Source: Nitrospirota bacterium (lineage in GTDB: Bacteria > Nitrospirota > Thermodesulfovibrionia > UBA6902). From it: 37,179 nucleotides of DNA. Position numbers and translations under genes: made by a program. The notes beneath the pieces are model-generated. The model ran no database searches. It was not told where the DNA came from and was given only the letters and a program-made list of their open reading frames with translations. The stretch lies in the NCBI GenBank assembly GCA_016222905.1, contig JACRPZ010000018.1:1-37179 (forward strand), given 5' to 3'. Below, one piece after another: positions 10,666 to 37,069 of this stretch. Position 1 is the stretch's first letter. Each line of letters begins with the position of its first letter.

Positions 10666-10698
10666 TTAACAAAAAATATATTTTAACTTGAGGTGCAA

Positions 10699-11553
10699 AT
10701 GCTGCAGGAAATTAAGGAAGTTAGCCCCACTACAAGAAGGATCACGATTAATATTCCGGCGGATGCTATAAAAGCGGAATTTAATTCTTCATATGACAAA
10801 CTCAGGGCAGTAGCCAGGATACCCGGTTTCAGGCAGGGCAAGGCGCCGCAGGCTATCCTTGAAAAGAGATTCGGCAAGGATATTGAAGCGGAAGTCATGC
10901 AGAAGATAATACCGGAATTTTACTCGAAAGCTATAACAGAGGCTGACATAGAACCTGTTGGTTATCCCAGCATTGAAGGCGATGTCGCTTTAAAGGCTGA
11001 CCAGCCGCTCTCTCTGACATTTACCGTTGAAGTGAAGCCTGCTCTCGGAGAGCTGAAATATGAGGGAATTGTGCTTGAGAAGAAAAAATTATCAGTGGAA
11101 GATGAGGAGATTGAAAGGGCGCTTAAGACCCTTCAGGATAGCAAGGTTCTATATTCTGTAACAGGAGAGGCAATAAAAGAAGGGGATCTGGCTGTAATAG
11201 ACGGTGACGCCTTTATTGCCGGCGAGAAGAAGGAGGAACTCTCTTACGGAGAATATCCATTCGTTCAGGGCTCTGAGACAATTCCTGAAGAATTCAGCGC
11301 GGCTATACTTGGAAAGAAAAAGGGTGATGAGTTTGAAGTAAAGCTGAACTTTGAAGGAGACCATCCCAATAAGACTATTGCCGGGAAAGAGATCCTCTTC
11401 AAGGTGAAGATTAAAGAGACGAAGAAGAGGAATGTTCCCCCTCTTGATGATGAGTTTGCAAAGGAGTTTGACAGCGACAACATGGAGGAACTCAGGAAGA
11501 AGGTGCGTGATAATATCTCGGAGCGCAGGGAGAGTGAGATAAAAATAAAATAA
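10699..11553 (+). CDS. tig: Trigger factor, N-terminal part (gene interrupted by an in-frame stop)
   Basis: This encodes the ribosome-binding tail and peptidyl-prolyl isomerase domain of the chaperone trigger factor. The N-terminus MLQEIKEVSPTTRRITINIP leads to PGFRQGKAPQ (about 40-50), the ribosome-binding loop. The FKBP-like domain lies at about 150-240. ATG at 10699 is chosen over GTG at 10693 because TTGAGG ends 5 bases before it. The frame stops at TAA 11551-11553 after SEIKIK, in an A-rich run, and the next codons in the same frame (KKEILNRLIKDHDFEIP) continue normal trigger factor. Read through, the product would be about 423 residues, the usual length. This is either a real nonsense mutation or a sequence error. 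Confidence 0.85.
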   Translation: MLQEIKEVSPTTRRITINIPADAIKAEFNSSYDKLRAVARIPGFRQGKAPQAILEKRFGKDIEAEVMQKIIPEFYSKAITEADIEPVGYPSIEGDVALKADQPLSLTFTVEVKPALGELKYEGIVLEKKKLSVEDEEIERALKTLQDSKVLYSVTGEAIKEGDLAVIDGDAFIAGEKKEELSYGEYPFVQGSETIPEEFSAAILGKKKGDEFEVKLNFEGDHPNKTIAGKEILFKVKIKETKKRNVPPLDDEFAKEFDSDNMEELRKKVRDNISERRESEIKIK

Positions 11554-11604
11554 AAAAAAGAGATACTGAACAGGCTTATAAAGGACCATGATTTTGAAAT
11601 ACCC

Positions 11605-11970
11605 GTGTCAATGCTGAAGTCGGAGATTGATTCTTTTATTGAACAGTTGAATGAGAGCGCTGTAAAGAGAAATGAGACTGTCAGGCCTGAGCAGGATCTG
11701 AGGAAGGAATATGAAGGGACAGCCCGCGGTAATGTCAAAAGCGTCCTTATCCTTGAGGCAATAGGGAAGAAAGAAAATATAGCGGTAAATGAAGAAGATA
11801 CTAAAAAAGCGATAAATGAGATCGCGGTGCGCCATAATCTCAAGCCTGAAGAGGTGACTAAGATTTATAGTGTAAGGGAAGGCTCTCTGGACGCCCTGAA
11901 GAGCAGATTATTCGGCGATAAGGTGCTTGAGTTTCTGCTTGGGAAGTCGGTTATCCAGGAAAAAGCATAG
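11605..11970 (+). CDS. tig: Trigger factor, C-terminal part (same frame, after the stop)
   Basis: This is the continuation of the trigger factor reading frame after the TAA at 11551. It covers most of the C-terminal chaperone arm (SMLKSEIDSFIEQLNESAVK, LILEAIGKKENIAVNEEDTK, LFGDKVLEFLLGKS). The homologous frame really resumes at 11554, 17 codons before the first usable start (GTG 11605 or ATG 11611). There is no convincing ribosome binding site before either, so independent translation is doubtful. It ends 28 bases before clpP, the usual tig-clpP-clpX order. If the stop is real, the cell makes only a trigger factor without its chaperone arm unless the stop is read through. Confidence 0.8.
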   Translation: MSMLKSEIDSFIEQLNESAVKRNETVRPEQDLRKEYEGTARGNVKSVLILEAIGKKENIAVNEEDTKKAINEIAVRHNLKPEEVTKIYSVREGSLDALKSRLFGDKVLEFLLGKSVIQEKA

Positions 11971-11998: not shown

Positions 11999-12610
11999 AT
12001 GAGCTTGATACCAATGGTTATTGAACAGACAGGAAGGTCTGAGAGGGCTTACGACATATATTCGAGGCTCCTTAAGGACAGGATTATATTTATAGGAACT
12101 CCCATTGAAGATTTGCTGGCAAATACCGTTATAGCGCAGCTCCTGTTTCTTCAGACCGAGGACCCTGATAAAGATATACATCTCTATATTAATACGCCCG
12201 GCGGTGTTGTTTCGGCAGGGCTTGCCATTTACGACACCATGCAGTATATAAAGCCTGATATTGCAACTTACTGCATAGGCCAGGCTACCAGCATGGGCGC
12301 TCTATTGCTTACGGCAGGCACAACCGGGAAGCGTTTTGCGCTTCCGCACTCAAGAATCATGATACATCAGCCTATCGGCGGATTTTACGGCCAGGCCACA
12401 GACGTGGAGATTCACGCAAGAGAGATGCTCAGGATGAAAGAAGTCCTGAATAATATACTTATAAAACATACCGGCCAGCCCATGGAGAAGATAAAGCTTG
12501 ATACTGAAAGGGATTACTTTATGTCCAGTGAAGAATCAAAGGATTACGGCATTATTGATGAAGTGATAAAGACTCTTAAAAAGCAAAAGGTAGACAAAAA
12601 TGAAAAATGA
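11999..12610 (+). CDS. clpP: ATP-dependent Clp protease proteolytic subunit ClpP
   Basis: This 203-residue serine peptidase forms the double-heptameric proteolytic chamber used by ClpX in the cytoplasm. The catalytic triad is visible: S98 in [12 protein letters not shown]123 in RIMIHQP and D172 in DTERDY. The N-terminus ([20 protein letters not shown]) is that of the mature form, with little or no propeptide. AAGGAG lies before the ATG at good spacing. The last 11 bases overlap clpX, so the two are translationally coupled, and trigger factor lies directly upstream. Length is standard. Confidence 0.97.
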
Positions 12611-13856
12611 AAAGAAGACAAGGGAATATAACGACCTGCTGAAATGCTCTTTCTGCGGCAAGGGGCAGCAGGAGGTCAAAAAACTTATCGCGGGTCCGGC
12701 TGTTTATATATGCAATGAATGCGTTGGCCTTTGTAATGAGATAATGGTTGAGGATGTTGATTCTTCCTTTGATGTCAATGTTACGCAAAAACTTCCGAAG
12801 CCAAGGGAGATAAATAACTTTCTGGGCGATTATGTGATAGAACAGGAAAGAGCCAAGAAAATACTCTCTGTTGCCGTGCATAATCACTACAAGAGGATAA
12901 ACAGTTCTCAGAAATCTGACGTCGAGCTTCAGAAGAGCAATATCCTTCTTATAGGACCGACAGGGACCGGCAAGACCATACTTGCCCAGACACTTGCGAA
13001 AACTCTTGATGTCCCTTTTACCATTGCTGACGCGACTACGCTTACAGAGGCCGGATATGTCGGCGAGGATGTGGAGAATATCATACAAAAGCTTCTGCAG
13101 GCGGCTGACTATGATGTTGAGAGGGCGCAGCGCGGCATAATATATATAGACGAGATAGACAAGATAGGCCGCAAGACAGAAAATGTATCAATAACAAGAG
13201 ACGTATCAGGCGAAGGTGTTCAGCAGGCCCTGCTGAAGCTGATAGAAGGGACTATTGCCAATATACCTCCTCAGGGAGGAAGAAAGCACCCGCAGCAGGA
13301 ATTTGTCCAGGTGAACACAACCAATATCCTATTTATATGCGGCGGGGCCTTTGTCGGTCTTGAAGAGATCATAAAGAACAGGCTAGGCAGTAAGACAGTC
13401 GGTTTTGGTTCTGAGCCGAAAAGCGCTAAGGAGAAGAAGATAGGCGATATTTACAGGATGATGGAGCCTCATGATCTTATCAAGTACGGTCTCATCCCTG
13501 AATTTGTCGGACGGCTTCCGGTTATTGCAACTCTTGATGAACTTAGCGAATCAGCGCTTGTAAGAATTCTTACTGAGCCCAAGAATGCAATTGTGAAACA
13601 GTTTCAGAGACTCCTCTCTTTTGATAATGTAAGGCTGAGGTTTACTGACGGAGCTTACTCCGCTATAGCAAAAGAGGCTATAAGACGCAAGACAGGGGCG
13701 CGCGGGCTAAGGGCAATTCTTGAAGATATAATGCTTGATGTAATGTATGAAATACCGTCTCAGTACGGGATTAAAGAGTGCCTTGTAACAGAGGACGTTA
13801 TTATCAAAAGAGAAAGACCGGTCCTTATCTATGAAAAGAAAGCCGAAACCGCGTAA
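12600..13856 (+). CDS. clpX: ATP-dependent Clp protease ATP-binding subunit ClpX
   Basis: This 418-residue AAA+ unfoldase delivers substrates to ClpP. The N-terminal zinc-binding domain has C16, C19, C38 and C41 (CSFCGKG and CNEC). Walker A is GPTGTGKT (119-126), Walker B is IIYIDEID, and [12 protein letters not shown] is the sensor/arginine-finger region. The C-terminal small domain includes [13 protein letters not shown]. The start overlaps the clpP end by 11 bases. The stop codon abuts the end of the convergent dciA gene, leaving no intergenic space and no separate terminator. Confidence 0.97.
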
Positions 13857-28913: not shown

Positions 28914-30224
28914 TTGAAAAAATCAGCGATATCTGTCGGGATTATAGGTTTCGGCACGGTCGGAACAGGGGTTGCGAAGATCCTTCTAAAAAAGGAGAAA
29001 GAACTTCAGGAGAGATTGGGGTTTCCTCTTCTTTTAAAGCGAATCGCGGATACGGATACAAAAAGGGACAGGGGGATAAGACTTCCGGCTGATCTGCTCA
29101 CAAAAGACGCTGATGTTGTATTAAATGACCCTGATATAGACATAGTTGTTGAACTTATCGGCGGGATACATCCTGCAAAGGAGATCATACTAAAGGCCAT
29201 AAGAAACGGTAAGCATGTGGTTACTGCAAACAAGGCGCTTATTGCTACCGAAGGAAAAAAGATATTTGATGCGGCTAAAAAGAGAAGAGTTGAAGTTGGT
29301 TTGGAGGCCGCGGTTGCGGGGAGCATCCCGGTAATCAAGATCATCAGAGAGGCGCTTGTCGGCAATACAATAGAGGCGCTCTTCGGCATAATCAACGGTA
29401 CATCAAATTATATATTATCAAAGATGACGGAAGAAAGCGTTGATTTTTCAACCGCCCTTGATGACGCTAAAGCGCTCGGGTATGCAGAGGCGGATCCAAA
29501 ATTTGATATTGAGGGTATTGACTCTGCTCATAAGCTTGCAATATTATTATCACTCTCATTTGGTGCGCCGTTTTCTTTCAGTAAGATATACACTGAGGGG
29601 ATAACAGAGATAACTCCTTTGGATATCCAGTTTGCATCGGAATTCGGCTATAAAATAAAGTTGCTGGCTATTGCAAAACTTGTAGATAGTGAAATAGAGG
29701 CAAGGGTTCATCCCACAATGCTGCCGGATGACAGTCTTATCTCAAATGTGAACGGTGTATTCAACGCAGTTTATGTTGAAGGAGATGCTATAGGACAGGC
29801 GCTTTACTATGGCAAAGGCGCTGGAGAAATGCCTACCGGAAGCGCTGTTGTCAGCGATATTGTTGATATTGCCAGAAATATCAGAACAGGGGCTGCTGAA
29901 AGGATTCGCGGGCTTGGTATGCCTGTGAATAGGAAGTTGAGCATAAGAAAGATGGAGGATATATCCTCCTGTTATTACCTCCGCTTTTCAGCTCTTGATA
30001 AACCCGGTGTACTCTCAAGGATTTCCGGAATATTAGGCGGCTGCAATATAAGCATTAAGTCTGTGATTCAGAAAGACCGTAAAAAAGAGAAGGCGGTTCC
30101 GCTGGTAATGATGACGCATAAGGCGAGAGAAAAGGATATAGTGCTTGCATTAAAGAAGATCAATAAATTACCGGTTGTATCTGGCAAGACTCTTTTTATA
30201 AGGGTAGAAGCCAAGGATGAATAG
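28914..30224 (+). CDS. hom: Homoserine dehydrogenase
   Basis: This 436-residue enzyme reduces aspartate semialdehyde to homoserine, the branch to threonine and methionine. GFGTVGTGVAKIL (about 11-23) binds NAD(P), GKHVVTANKALIA and GTSNYILSKM are catalytic-region motifs, and YAEADPKFDIEGIDSAHKLA lines the active site. A C-terminal ACT domain (about 350-430) suggests feedback regulation by threonine or another amino acid. The start is a TTG, preceded by GAGG. It begins a run of seven plus-strand genes whose products link homoserine metabolism with sulfur transfer. No homoserine kinase is in the window. Confidence 0.95.
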   Translation: MKKSAISVGIIGFGTVGTGVAKILLKKEKELQERLGFPLLLKRIADTDTKRDRGIRLPADLLTKDADVVLNDPDIDIVVELIGGIHPAKEIILKAIRNGKHVVTANKALIATEGKKIFDAAKKRRVEVGLEAAVAGSIPVIKIIREALVGNTIEALFGIINGTSNYILSKMTEESVDFSTALDDAKALGYAEADPKFDIEGIDSAHKLAILLSLSFGAPFSFSKIYTEGITEITPLDIQFASEFGYKIKLLAIAKLVDSEIEARVHPTMLPDDSLISNVNGVFNAVYVEGDAIGQALYYGKGAGEMPTGSAVVSDIVDIARNIRTGAAERIRGLGMPVNRKLSIRKMEDISSCYYLRFSALDKPGVLSRISGILGGCNISIKSVIQKDRKKEKAVPLVMMTHKAREKDIVLALKKINKLPVVSGKTLFIRVEAKDE

Positions 30225-30230
30225 ATAATA

Positions 30231-30485
30231 ATGAATGACATAAATATTAAAGCGGACAGAAAGCTGGATATAAGGGGTGTAGTCTGCCCCTATACCCTTG
30301 TGAAATCAAAACTTGCTGTCGAGGATTTAGAACTCGGGCAGGTGCTTGAAATACTACTTGATTATCCTGAGGCAGCTCAGAGCATTCCAAAGGCGATGCA
30401 TAATTATGGAAATTCTGTTCTCAAAGTGGAGCAGATAAGCCCACGAGAATGGATCATTCTTGTAAAGAAAGAGGTTGAAGACTGA
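30231..30485 (+). CDS. TusA-like sulfur-relay protein
   Basis: This 84-residue protein has LDIRGVVCPYTLVKSKLAVE, the TusA/SirA-like motif in which C19 would carry a persulfide. The usual CPxP is CPYT here, so the second proline is missing, but the surrounding KxxL pattern is kept. TusA proteins pass sulfur from cysteine desulfurases to acceptors. The gene lies 6 bases after hom, and its stop overlaps the moeB-like start by one base (TGATG). This fits a role as sulfur donor for the adjacent E1/MoaD pair. Confidence 0.85.
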   Translation: MNDINIKADRKLDIRGVVCPYTLVKSKLAVEDLELGQVLEILLDYPEAAQSIPKAMHNYGNSVLKVEQISPREWIILVKKEVED

Positions 30486-31285
30486 TGGAGTTTACCGAAG
30501 AACAACTTAAGAGATACAGCAGGCATATAATTCTGTCAGAAGTTGGCGGCAAAGGGCAGAAGAAGATATCCGCTGCAAAGGTGCTTATGGTCGGTGCCGG
30601 AGGGCTTGGCTGTCCTGTCGGTTATTACCTTGCGGCTGCGGGAGTCGGCACCATCGCAATTGTAGATAATGACGAAGTAGAGCTGAGCAACCTTCAGAGA
30701 CAGATTGCTCACAGCGTAAAAACGCTCGGCATGAAAAAGGCTGATTCGGCAAAACAGACCTTTGAGGCATTGAATCCGGATGTGAATGTTGTTGCTATTA
30801 AAGAGAGGATTAACAGCAAGAACATACTTGACCTGATAAGAGACTACGATATAATCGTTGACGGCACAGATAATTTCCCGACAAGGTATCTTATTAATGA
30901 CGCCTGTGTAATGTTAGGGAAGCCTCTTGTCACCGGAGCTATACTCAGATTTGAAGGGCAGGTAACAACAATCCTGCCGGGCGACGGGCCGTGCTACCGC
31001 TGCCTCTTTGAAGAGCCTCCGCCTGCAGGGCTTGTACCTTCATGCCAGGAAGCGGGCGTGCTTGGTGTTCTGCCAGGCGTTATCGGCGCTCTCCAGGCAA
31101 CAGAAGTTTTGAAACTAATTATCGGCAAAGGAAAACCTTTAAAAGGTGAATTGTTGATTTATGATGCCCTTGGCGTGAATTTCAGAAAGGTGAAGATTCC
31201 AAAGAATTCCGAATGTCCTGTTTGCGGCAAAGAGCCTACGATTAAAGAGCTCTCGGATATGCCGGAACAGTATTGTGAGATATAA
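30485..31285 (+). CDS. MoeB/ThiF/HesA-family adenylyltransferase
   Basis: This 266-residue E1-like enzyme adenylates the C-terminal glycine of a MoaD/ThiS-type sulfur carrier. GAGGLGCPVG (37-46) and DNDEVELSNLQRQ (61-73) bind ATP; TDNFPTRYLINDAC and RFEGQVTTI are conserved. Zinc ligands are C170, C173, C244 and C247 (CYRC and CPVC). C187 lies in the family's reactive-cysteine region (PSCQEAGVLG). There is no rhodanese domain, so sulfur must come from another protein, plausibly the TusA-like product. MoeB, ThiF and HcyF-type members cannot be told apart by motif alone. Confidence 0.92.
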   Translation: MEFTEEQLKRYSRHIILSEVGGKGQKKISAAKVLMVGAGGLGCPVGYYLAAAGVGTIAIVDNDEVELSNLQRQIAHSVKTLGMKKADSAKQTFEALNPDVNVVAIKERINSKNILDLIRDYDIIVDGTDNFPTRYLINDACVMLGKPLVTGAILRFEGQVTTILPGDGPCYRCLFEEPPPAGLVPSCQEAGVLGVLPGVIGALQATEVLKLIIGKGKPLKGELLIYDALGVNFRKVKIPKNSECPVCGKEPTIKELSDMPEQYCEI

Positions 31286-31318
31286 ATAAATTTTAAACTG
31301 TATTTTTTGAGGCGAAGA

Positions 31319-32557
31319 ATGAGTTTTATAAGAGGACTTAAATGCAGGGAGTGTGGCAGGGAATACGAGATCGCCCCTATTTACGTTTGCGAGTTCTGCT
31401 TTGGCCCGCTTGAGGTGGTTTATGATTATCAGGGGATAAAAGGCGTTCTGACGAGGGAAGTGATTCAGTCGCGGCCCAATAATTTGTGGCGTTACAGAGA
31501 GCTGCTTCCTGTTGAAGGCGAACCGACAAATGCTCTCAATACAGGTTTTACGCCGCTGGTAAAGGCGGATAATCTTGCAAAGCATCTGGGCTTAAAGGAA
31601 CTCTACATAAAAGATGATACAGTAGCCCATCCAACTCTCTCCTTCAAAGACAGAGTGGTTGCTGTTGCGCTGGCGAGAGCAAGGGAGTTTGGGTTTGATA
31701 CAGTGGCATGCGCTTCTACAGGCAACCTTGCGCATGCTGTTTCAGCTCATGGAGCAAAAGAAGGATTCAAACGCTTTATATTTATCCCGGCTTCTCTGGA
31801 GAAAAGCAAGATTGTAGCGTCTCTCGTATATGAGCCGAACCTTATCGCTGTTGACGGCAATTATGACGATGTCAACAGGCTCTGCAGCGAGATCGCCAAT
31901 AAGTACCGCTGGGCCTTTGTAAATATAAATATCCGGCCGTTCTATGCCGAGGGCTCCAAGTCTCAGGGGTTCGAGATAATCGAGCAGCTTGGCTGGAAAG
32001 CGCCTGACGCGGTTGTTGTCCCATGCGCGAGCGGTTCTTTGCTGACCAAGATATGGAAGAGTTTTAAAGAGATGAAAGAGGTCGGATTGATTGACGAGGT
32101 TCATACAAAAGTTTTCGCTGCTCAGGCCACAGGCTGTTCGCCTATTGTCGCGGCCATAAAACAGGGGATTGATGTTATAAAACCCGTAAAGCCTGACACG
32201 ATCGCAAAGTCGCTTGCAATAGGAAATCCTGCCGATGGTTTTTATGCAATACACGTAATACGTGAGACCGGCGGGTATGGAGAGGATGCATCAGATCAGG
32301 AGATCATTGATGCAATGAAGCTGCTTGCAAGGACAGAGGGAATATTTGCTGAGACCGCCGGAGGCGTAACTCTCGCTTCTGCTATTAAACTTATCAATTC
32401 GGGAAAGATTGATAAAAATGGAACAACCGTGCTTTGCATAACCGGCAACGGACTGAAGACACAGGAGGCGCTCAGCGGACATACTCCTGAGCCGCATTAC
32501 ATTAAGCCGAACATTAATTCCTTTGAAGAGGTTTTGGCGAAGATTAAAAAGGTTTGA
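31319..32557 (+). CDS. Divergent threonine-synthase-like PLP enzyme with N-terminal zinc ribbon
   Basis: This is a 412-residue fold-type II PLP enzyme. The N-terminus has a four-cysteine ribbon (C9, C12, C24, C27: CRECG and CEFC). The PLP lysine is K110 in PTLSFKDRVV; canonical threonine synthases have [24 protein letters not shown] binds the cofactor phosphate, and ITGNGLKTQ is conserved. The canonical thrC lies two genes on, so this paralogue probably differs in function. Its neighbours (TusA-like, E1-like, MoaD/ThiS, NIL) suggest use of a protein thiocarboxylate, but this is inference. ATG 31319 is preferred to TTG 31307 because GAGG lies 7 bases upstream. Confidence 0.85.
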   Translation: MSFIRGLKCRECGREYEIAPIYVCEFCFGPLEVVYDYQGIKGVLTREVIQSRPNNLWRYRELLPVEGEPTNALNTGFTPLVKADNLAKHLGLKELYIKDDTVAHPTLSFKDRVVAVALARAREFGFDTVACASTGNLAHAVSAHGAKEGFKRFIFIPASLEKSKIVASLVYEPNLIAVDGNYDDVNRLCSEIANKYRWAFVNINIRPFYAEGSKSQGFEIIEQLGWKAPDAVVVPCASGSLLTKIWKSFKEMKEVGLIDEVHTKVFAAQATGCSPIVAAIKQGIDVIKPVKPDTIAKSLAIGNPADGFYAIHVIRETGGYGEDASDQEIIDAMKLLARTEGIFAETAGGVTLASAIKLINSGKIDKNGTTVLCITGNGLKTQEALSGHTPEPHYIKPNINSFEEVLAKIKKV

Positions 32558-32579
32558 TATATGAAAGGAGGGAAATATC

Positions 32580-32855
32580 ATGGCTGTTAAAGTAAAAATA
32601 CCGGTGCCGTTACAGCGTATAACGCAGGGCAAAGAAGAGGTCGAGGCTGAGGCCGGCACAGTGATCTCACTTGTTAATGACCTTAATCAAAAGTATCCCG
32701 GCCTTGCAGAACGCATATCCGAAAATGGAAAGATAAGAAGGTTCGTCAACGTCTATATCAATGAAGAGGATATCAGGTTTTTGAAGAGCGAGGACACATC
32801 TGTAAAAGACGGCGATGTTGTCTCAATAGTGCCTGCGATCGCAGGCGGCATTTAA
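32580..32855 (+). CDS. MoaD/ThiS-family sulfur-carrier protein
   Basis: This 91-residue ubiquitin-like protein contains VKIPVPLQRI, ETVSL-type VISLVNDLNQKYPGL and VKDGDVVSIVPAIAGG. These carriers are activated by an E1-like enzyme and hold sulfur as a C-terminal thiocarboxylate. The sequence ends GGI, not GG, so a terminal isoleucine would have to be removed to expose the reactive glycine. GGAGGG precedes the ATG. The gene lies 22 bases after the divergent threonine-synthase-like gene and directly before the NIL gene. It could serve molybdopterin or thiamine synthesis instead, but no such genes are nearby. Confidence 0.9.
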   Translation: MAVKVKIPVPLQRITQGKEEVEAEAGTVISLVNDLNQKYPGLAERISENGKIRRFVNVYINEEDIRFLKSEDTSVKDGDVVSIVPAIAGGI

Positions 32856-32869
32856 AATCAGGGGGGCGA

Positions 32870-33106
32870 ATGAAAAGAAGAATAAAATTGACCTTTCCGC
32901 AGGACCTTATAAAAGAGCCGGTCATATTTACAATGGCAAAGAAGTTCGACATAATGCCGAACATCAGAAGGGCGCGGGTCACCGAGACAGTCGGCGAAAT
33001 GATTCTTGAGCTTGAGGGCGAAGAAGAGAATCTTAACATGGGAGTGAAGTTTCTCAAGGAACGGGGAATTGTTGTAGAGCCTGCCGAAGGTGACATCGTA
33101 GAATAA
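32870..33106 (+). CDS. NIL-domain protein
   Basis: This 78-residue stand-alone NIL domain begins [24 protein letters not shown]. It has [19 protein letters not shown] in the middle and [14 protein letters not shown] near the end. NIL domains are found in methionine ABC transporters as ligand-binding regulatory units and in proteins of sulfur-amino-acid metabolism. GGGGGG lies before the ATG. Its place between a sulfur carrier and thrC supports a role in sensing or making a sulfur amino acid. It is too short to be an enzyme. Confidence 0.88.
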
Positions 33107-33107
33107 T

Positions 33108-34175
33108 ATGAAACTCTGGAAAGGATTAATTGAAGAATACAGGGAATTCCTCCCTGTATCGGAAAAAACACCTGTAATTACTCTTCAGGAAGGCAATACC
33201 CCTTTAATCAAAGCCTCGCATACTGATGAGATTCTCTCTCAGGATGTTGCTTTATATTTCAAGTTTGAAGGCTTAAATCCCACCGGCTCATTTAAAGACC
33301 GTGGGATGACGGTCGCCATATCAAAAGCTGTTGAATCCGGCGCAAAGGCTGTTATATGCGCGTCAACCGGCAATACATCCGCGTCCGCAACCGCCTACGC
33401 GGCAAGAGCCGATATATCCACTATCGTTCTGATACCTGAAGGGAAGATAGCAATGGGCAAACTGGCGCAGGCAATGATACACGGAGCTATGGTGCTTCAG
33501 GTTGACGGTAATTTTGATGAGGCATTGACGATAGTTAAAGAGGTCGTGGCCAAGCATCCGATCGCATTAGTCAATTCAATAAATCCCTTCAGAATCGAGG
33601 GACAAAAGACAGCGGCATTTGAGGTATGCGACCAGCTCGGTTTTGCCCCTGTCTACCATGCTCTTCCAGTAGGAAATGCCGGAAACATTACTGCATACTG
33701 GAAAGGCTACAATGAGTATATGAAAGCTGGGAAGAGCGGTTCTTTGCCCAAGATGTTAGGGTTTCAGGCTGCCGGAGCAGCGCCTATAGTCTTAGGCCAT
33801 CCGGTTGAAAAGCCTGAGACAGTTGCCACTGCCATCAGGATCGGCAACCCCGCAAGCTGGAAAGGCGCGGTTGCTGCAAGGGATGAATCAGGAGGAATAA
33901 TAGACGCTGTCACCGATGATGAGATACTTGAGGCATATAAATTAATCGCGGCCAAGGAAGGGATATTCTGCGAACCTGCATCAGCCGCATCTCTGGCAGG
34001 CGTGATTAAACTCTCAAAGCAGGGCTATTTTAAAGGCGGGGACAGCATCGTCTGCACATTAACAGGTAATGGTTTGAAAGACCCGGACAATGCTATTAGG
34101 CTCTCTGAACCGCCTATAAAGGTTAAAGCAAATATCGCGGCAGTAGAGGATGTTTTGAGAGGCTGCTGCATATAG
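33108..34175 (+). CDS. thrC: Threonine synthase
   Basis: This 355-residue PLP enzyme converts O-phosphohomoserine to threonine. Motifs are [27 protein letters not shown] with the PLP lysine K63, [18 protein letters not shown] (cofactor phosphate) and TGNGLKDPD near the end. It is the compact form without an N-terminal zinc ribbon. It begins 2 bases after the NIL stop codon, so the two are coupled. It is the canonical enzyme of the pair; the other lies at 31319-32557. Confidence 0.93.
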
Positions 34176-35682: not shown

Positions 35683-35892
35683 TTATGCAAAGACCAATCG
35701 GCCTTTAGGCTGGGGGATAGGGCGTCCTAATTCTTTTGCAGTTGCAATCCACTCTTTAATAATTACTTCAACATTAGTAAGCGCTTCCTTATAGGTAGCG
35801 CCATCCGCTGCACATCCCGGCAGCTCAGGGACTTCAGCAATAAAAGCCCGGTCGTCTGCGCTCCAGTAGATAATTATCTCGTATTTACTCAT
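35683..35892 (-). CDS. hicB: HicB-family antitoxin
   Basis: This 69-residue protein has the partial RNase-H-like HicB fold: YEIIIYWSADDRAFIAEVPE, then LPGCAADGATYKEALTNVE and WIATAKELGRPIPQP. It neutralises HicA, an mRNA interferase. AGGAG lies before the ATG. It has no added DNA-binding domain after the core, so it is the short form. The gene follows hicA by 1 base on the same strand and converges on the pepA end. Confidence 0.9.
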   Translation of the reverse strand: MSKYEIIIYWSADDRAFIAEVPELPGCAADGATYKEALTNVEVIIKEWIATAKELGRPIPQPKGRLVFA

Positions 35893-35893
35893 C

Positions 35894-36145
35894 TTATTTT
35901 TCTCCTAATTTATATTTCAGAATTATATTGCGAACCTGTTTAACTTGATAAGGTTTTGATTTATTGCCTTTGGGTTGTAAATTGAGTATCTCCTCAACCT
36001 CGTCTTTTGTAAAAATATGATGACTACCACGGATTCTTTCGTCAAAACCTAAATTTTTTAATAAACCACATAATCCATCAAAAGGAATGTTAGCGTCAGA
36101 TGTTCCACTTAAAATTTGTAATAATAGTTTCTGTTGTTTACCCAT
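35894..36145 (-). CDS. hicA: HicA-family mRNA interferase toxin
   Basis: This 83-residue protein has the HicA double-stranded-RNA-binding-like fold: IPFDGLCGLLKNLGFDERI, then the active-site GSHHIFTK with the catalytic histidine, and QVKQVRNIILKYKLGE. The GLCGLLKNLGF and GSHHIF motifs are diagnostic. HicA cleaves mRNA and is held by HicB. It is the first gene of the pair. A perfect TATAAT 8 bases before the ATG implies a leaderless mRNA. Confidence 0.9.
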   Translation of the reverse strand: MGKQQKLLLQILSGTSDANIPFDGLCGLLKNLGFDERIRGSHHIFTKDEVEEILNLQPKGNKSKPYQVKQVRNIILKYKLGEK

Positions 36146-36485: not shown

Positions 36486-36878
36486 TTACAGCAGTGTTAT
36501 CGGCAAATATTTCTTGTAATTTTCAAAATCTTTATCGGTTGTAAAGATAATAATATTTTCAATGTTTGCAACAGCGCAGATCAAAAAATCTATCGTTGAT
36601 CCCTGAACGCCTCTTTTTCGGCAGATATTGCTAAATTCAGCAGCCTTTATATAATGGTCGGTTTCAAGAGTCAAATCCTCGAAAGCGGCAAGCGTATCTT
36701 TTAACTTGTTAAATTGTGAGCCATTGGATATGCCAGAAAGAAGCTCCTGCCGGATCGGCCCAATCATAACTACCGATCCGTTTTTTATAAGTTCTATGGT
36801 TTTATCGCTCATCGCCGCGTCTGAAGACTTATGTCTGAGTACTTTAGACCAGACGCATGTGTCAATGAGAACTTTCAT
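36486..36878 (-). CDS. vapC: VapC-family PIN-domain toxin
   Basis: This 130-residue PIN-domain ribonuclease has the acidic metal-binding residues D6 (LIDTCVWSK), E45 (RQELLSG), D97 (GSTIDFLICA) and D115 (FTTDKDF). VapC toxins cut tRNA or rRNA and are neutralised by VapB. Its start overlaps vapB by 4 bases. It converges on the pepA 3' fragment with a 6-base gap. Length is normal. Confidence 0.9.
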   Translation of the reverse strand: MKVLIDTCVWSKVLRHKSSDAAMSDKTIELIKNGSVVMIGPIRQELLSGISNGSQFNKLKDTLAAFEDLTLETDHYIKAAEFSNICRKRGVQGSTIDFLICAVANIENIIIFTTDKDFENYKKYLPITLL

Positions 36879-37069
36879 CTTGTCCTTGCTTTTTTATAGT
36901 CATATTTTTTATCGAAAACGATCTTGCCGAACAAGCCAATTACCTCAATCTGTTTTTTTCTTGCAATGTATTCTTTTAATGCGGTAGTTACAGCATCTTT
37001 TTTTGTTTTATGATGCCCCACCTTTTGAGCCTGAGAAATTAAATTGAGACTGCTGAAAAAGACTGGCAT
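36875..37069 (-). CDS. vapB: VapB-family antitoxin
   Basis: This 64-residue protein carries the VapB core VGHHKTKKDAVTTALKEYIA and the C-terminal VapC-wrapping tail GLFGKIVFDKKYDYKKARTR. The N-terminal beta-strand region (MPVFFSSLNLISQAQK) is unusual: LNL runs directly into ISQA, where family members have about three extra residues. A small deletion or altered DNA binding is possible. It is the first gene of the pair, overlapping vapC by 4 bases, and diverges from the transposase gene. Confidence 0.8.
   Translation of the reverse strand: MPVFFSSLNLISQAQKVGHHKTKKDAVTTALKEYIARKKQIEVIGLFGKIVFDKKYDYKKARTR

Follow-up and report, generated by a model that had tools for sequence, protein, structure and literature searches.

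Trigger factor is among the most widespread of bacterial chaperones, its gene having been found in 97.86% of 15,575 genomes and mostly in a single copy (PMC11559001). The same source describes a GFRxGxxP motif in the N-terminal domain, through which the protein binds the ribosome. The C-terminal domain is presented as the main trigger factor module, with a chaperone activity of its own (PMC5587573), and the account given for the Chlamydomonas protein has this domain composed, in this order, of a long linker helix, arm 1 and arm 2 (PMC9527764). The locus described here encodes a protein of this type, in which the reading frame is interrupted by a single stop codon in the C-terminal domain.

The gene lies in a stretch of 37,179 nucleotides, hereinafter the window, in which profile matches recover tig, clpP and clpX consecutively on the forward strand. 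The tig gene (10699-11970) runs from an ATG at 10699, with a Shine-Dalgarno-like GAGGTG just upstream of it, to a TAG at 11968-11970; the alternative start, GTG at 10693, shows no Shine-Dalgarno pairing. An in-frame TAA at 11551-11553 divides the gene into two pieces. The front piece (10699-11550) comprises 284 codons covering the ribosome-binding part, the PPIase part and the start of the C-terminal domain. It corresponds to positions 2-273 of the 410 positions of TIGR00115 (E 2.2e-73), matches Trigger_N (E 7.6e-39) and has GFRQGKAP as its version of the ribosome-binding motif. The back piece (11554-11970) comprises 138 codons and the TAG and supplies the remainder of the C-terminal domain, which is predicted to include both arms; its coding part (11554-11967) matches positions 277-410 of 410 of the same profile (E 5.1e-24), in register with the front piece. 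Relative to the curated TIGR00115 cut-off of 180.2 bits the front piece alone scores above (247.5) and the back piece alone below (84.9). The Pfam Trigger_C match spans the interruption and contains one TAA. Thus, as written, the C-terminal chaperone domain is not present in one chain, though it may be so in the living organism should the TAA prove to be an error of the assembly. Downstream, clpP (11999-12610; TIGR00493, E 2.7e-99) and clpX (12600-13856; TIGR00382, E 4.2e-196) are intact open reading frames.

These observations bear out most of an earlier note on this DNA, which had placed the stop in the same frame as both its flanks, recognized trigger factor on either side and dismissed a frameshift: the position and the frame are right, and, as both pieces share one frame and match TIGR00115 in register, there is no net frameshift. 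Of the two origins that it proposed for the TAA, a change of one codon is the simplest account, given that the site is normally a tyrosine, while a pair of compensating errors is possible but not needed. Its description of the codon as preceding an A8 run requires correction, in that the run (11552-11559) begins inside the TAA and not after it. Its suggestion that slippage in this run could also occur offers no route around the stop; such a bypass is impossible because the T of the stop codon lies 5' of the run.

Elsewhere in the window a row of forward-strand genes (28914-34175) encodes a homoserine dehydrogenase (by our own reading), TusA, a ThiF-type enzyme, a threonine-synthase-like enzyme of the PALP fold, a ThiS-type carrier ending in GGI, a NIL-domain protein and a second PALP enzyme. 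We take this row to resemble the carrier-dependent homocysteine synthesis of Wolinella, and by this analogy the residue after the GG of the carrier would need to be removed. On the reverse strand, domain matches identify a HicB-like and HicA-like toxin-antitoxin pair (35683-36145), and a PIN-domain protein overlaps a small partner (36486-37069) that appears VapB-like upon reading its sequence.

By our own count on an alignment, the TAA falls at about residue 287 of the Escherichia coli trigger factor chain, before the arms. Translation of the gene as written would end after 284 codons. Both arms would be expected to be missing from the product, which would retain the ribosome-binding and PPIase parts along with much of the linker helix. 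The absence of the chaperone arm from such a product, which the earlier note had anticipated, is thus consistent with the alignment. If this fragment is indeed made, it would be a ribosome-binding and PPIase module devoid of arms.

A survey of related genomes indicates that the stop is not shared. A trigger factor match was obtained in 59 of the 61 genomes searched, including the source genome itself, and the 29 family relatives that were read codon by codon have no internal stop. The residue aligned with the TAA is a tyrosine in 28 of these relatives and a histidine in the remaining one. Likewise, no stop is seen in the matched part of 47 loci from named genomes, a set that largely overlaps the 29 relatives, in which the aligned residue is tyrosine (34), glutamine (11), histidine (1) or isoleucine (1). 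Most of these loci are attributed to Nitrospirae, Nitrospiraceae or Thermodesulfovibrionia, a few to Deferribacteres, and one distant locus to Chloroflexi. At the level of the class, Trigger_C is matched in 219 of 230 genomes (154 of the 158 of good quality), and among the 150 best-scoring matches, which are those the count rests on and beyond which broken, lower-scoring copies could escape notice, that of the window alone contains a stop. Ten relatives were initially flagged as having a stop inside the match, as would be seen if the stop were conserved; eight of these have only their terminal stop, and in the other two, which are more distant, the frame stays open over 434 and 427 codons. The TAA is therefore private to the source genome among the relatives read. 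The genus search returned a single genome, the source genome itself, and a 29-base piece had no exact match in viral contigs. One relative (G003) has three trigger factor matches, on contigs C159, C164 and C165, possibly reflecting mixed strains or contamination.

The region behind the stop shows no measurable decay of the kind seen in pseudogenes, be it in conserved columns or in branch share. For columns with conservation in 27 or more of the 29 relatives, the window agrees at 61 of 66 positions before the TAA and at 42 of 45 behind it; at a laxer threshold of at least 24 of 29 the corresponding figures are 83 of 101 and 59 of 68. The share of the tree taken up by the terminal branch is 0.040 before and 0.049 behind the stop, ranking 5 and 3 of 30 respectively, the slightly larger value behind it being a point against the explanation preferred below. 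The back piece is thus conserved to about the same degree as the front piece, and the change is therefore either recent or an error in the consensus. The result on conserved columns is compatible with a very recent lesion, whose age is only loosely bounded because the nearest relative found is 61% identical.

The preservation of both frame and conservation across the TAA could also be explained if the codon were recoded, with a suppressor or near-cognate tRNA reading through it. The site being a tyrosine in most relatives, near-cognate reading by a tyrosine tRNA is plausible, and this tRNA could not be inspected since it was not found in the assembly. Nevertheless, several observations make recoding the most improbable of the explanations considered: the TAA is not conserved in relatives; at least four further genes in the window use TAA as their terminator; no UUA anticodon occurs among the 38 tRNA matches (E 0.001 or better), which include no tRNA-Tyr; and the RNA downstream of the stop (11554-11640) folds no better than its shuffled versions, with 171 of 200 shuffles folding at least as well (z +1.01, for folds free of pseudoknots). 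As a separate observation, tRNA-Tyr, tRNA-Thr and the Gly tRNAs other than gcc are all missing from these 38 matches despite a rated completeness of 100%; our guess is that a repeat, tuf for instance, may account for their loss.

The open and conserved back piece might alternatively point to a split but working gene: translation would reinitiate behind the stop, for example at GTG 11605 or ATG 11611, and the resulting second chain would pair with the front one. The nearest start codon in this frame is found 17 codons downstream of the TAA. Yet Shine-Dalgarno pairing is absent from the candidate restart codons at 11605, 11611 and 11647, whereas values of -4 kcal/mol or better are attained by 12 of the 25 starts that were scored in the window. 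This absence speaks only weakly against reinitiation and is not decisive, since seven of the 25 scored starts, among them the alternative start of tig, are likewise unpaired. Further, the break precedes arm 1 and probably falls inside the linker helix, and such an arrangement occurs in none of the relatives read. We accordingly regard a split gene as very unlikely. Equally doubtful is a combination in which the TAA is real but tolerated, the cell making mainly an arm-less, ribosome-bound trigger factor and, by readthrough at the A-rich tract or by reinitiation coupled to it, some protein that is either full-length or composed of two chains; this would then explain why the back piece has not decayed.

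In light of the above, it is highly probable that the locus represents an isolated and recent nonsense change, either real or in the consensus, at one codon of an otherwise intact and single tig, in an uncultured bacterium that, judging from its relatives, belongs to the Nitrospirota. The TAA is embedded in an A-rich tract (11539-11559) with 18 A in 21 bases that contains runs of A5, A4 and A8, and it occupies the 5' edge of one such run. The tract presumably promoted the change, by way of a transient misalignment in the cell or of a miscall in the consensus. An A-rich tract could favour misalignment mutations as well as miscalls. In a sample of 432,179 bases, composed of the window and 20 other stretches of the same genome, only two 21-mers on both strands contain at least 18 A, the tig tract included, and the sole match in the genome to a 25-base version of the tract, at up to three mismatches, is the tig site itself.

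In the same sample, 231 pairs of same-frame open reading frames separated by one stop were collected (each side having at least 60 codons) and ordered by the weaker of the coding scores adjoining the stop. The tig pair ranks first, and its split is thus more than what chance would produce. Inspection by eye of the best 30 of the 231 pairs revealed no second clear interruption by an in-frame stop. One pair, in stretch L079, was checked by translation and proved by our reading to be a histidine kinase and a response regulator, i.e. ordinary neighbors; the other pairs inspected were judged solely by how far away the next start codon lay. This survey of in-frame, stop-separated pairs lends no support to the notion of a widely broken assembly.

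The alternative that the cells carry a sense codon, with the TAA existing in the assembly alone, is a subset of the preferred explanation to which we give a little under an even chance. It would account for a stop that is private and followed by no measurable decay, and that lies in one of just two such A-rich 21-mers of the 432 kb. Moreover, at four neighboring codons of the site the sequence deviates, towards A, from what most of the family has, and among residues 283-286 three depart from columns that are otherwise conserved, as compared to a maximum of two within any four residues in the 29 relatives. However, a permutation test did not find this clustering to be significant (3400 of 20000 when the stop is included, 19434 of 20000 when it is left out), and a wider test with five columns is unremarkable (four departures here and up to five in relatives). 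Hence, a local burst of errors was not counted as evidence. The lack of any other clear in-frame interruption in the 432 kb also argues against the assembly being generally error-ridden.

The other subset, namely that the nonsense mutation is real and recent, whether fixed or polymorphic, and gives rise to an arm-less trigger factor, is likewise slightly below an even chance, and the odds of the two are about equal. The apparent soundness of the sampled assembly with respect to in-frame stops favors such a mutation, as does its location, the edges of homopolymer runs being known places for misalignment substitutions. The tig gene can be deleted in E. coli, and the present genome contains a stop-free gene of the HSP70/DnaK type; because this gene is open, and by analogy to E. 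coli, the loss of trigger factor would be survivable. Against a real mutation stand the wide retention of Trigger_C in the class and the lack of any other stop among the 150 matches listed. In the source genome (2.84 Mb in 90 contigs, with completeness rated at 100%) Trigger_N and Trigger_C are each matched once, at the tig locus, which is hence the sole trigger factor found in it. If the change is real, the organism would offer a case from nature of a bacterium with a single trigger factor that is devoid of arms. More generally, caution is called for when a core gene carries a lone in-frame stop and the assembly is fragmented; the reads should be checked before a loss of function is claimed.

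In conclusion, the interruption is most probably of an ordinary kind, either a recent nonsense change private to this genome or an error of the consensus, and not a new mechanism. It can be set against three known situations. With the trigger factor of E. coli (TIGR00115; structure 1w26) the gene product shares the N-terminal and PPIase parts and a C-terminal part that continues in frame, and as with the bacterial trigger factor gene in general tig precedes clpP and clpX; the distinction lies in the in-frame TAA ahead of the arms. Recent pseudogenes created by a single nonsense change occur in bacterial genomes, and they are comparable in having one stop, conserved halves and no counterpart in the relatives read. 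The present case differs in that a nearly universal chaperone gene is affected and in that it is known from an assembly alone. Trigger factor forms without one of the domains are also represented by the plastid Tig2 and by shortened bacterial duplicates. Tig2 seems to hold the ribosome-binding domain only and accompanies a full-length TIG1 (PMC5587573; PMC11731035), whereas the extra bacterial copies described in PMC11559001 are devoid of the N-terminal domain and occur beside one complete copy. In contrast to both of these, it is the sole copy that is affected here, and the part that it loses is the C-terminal one.
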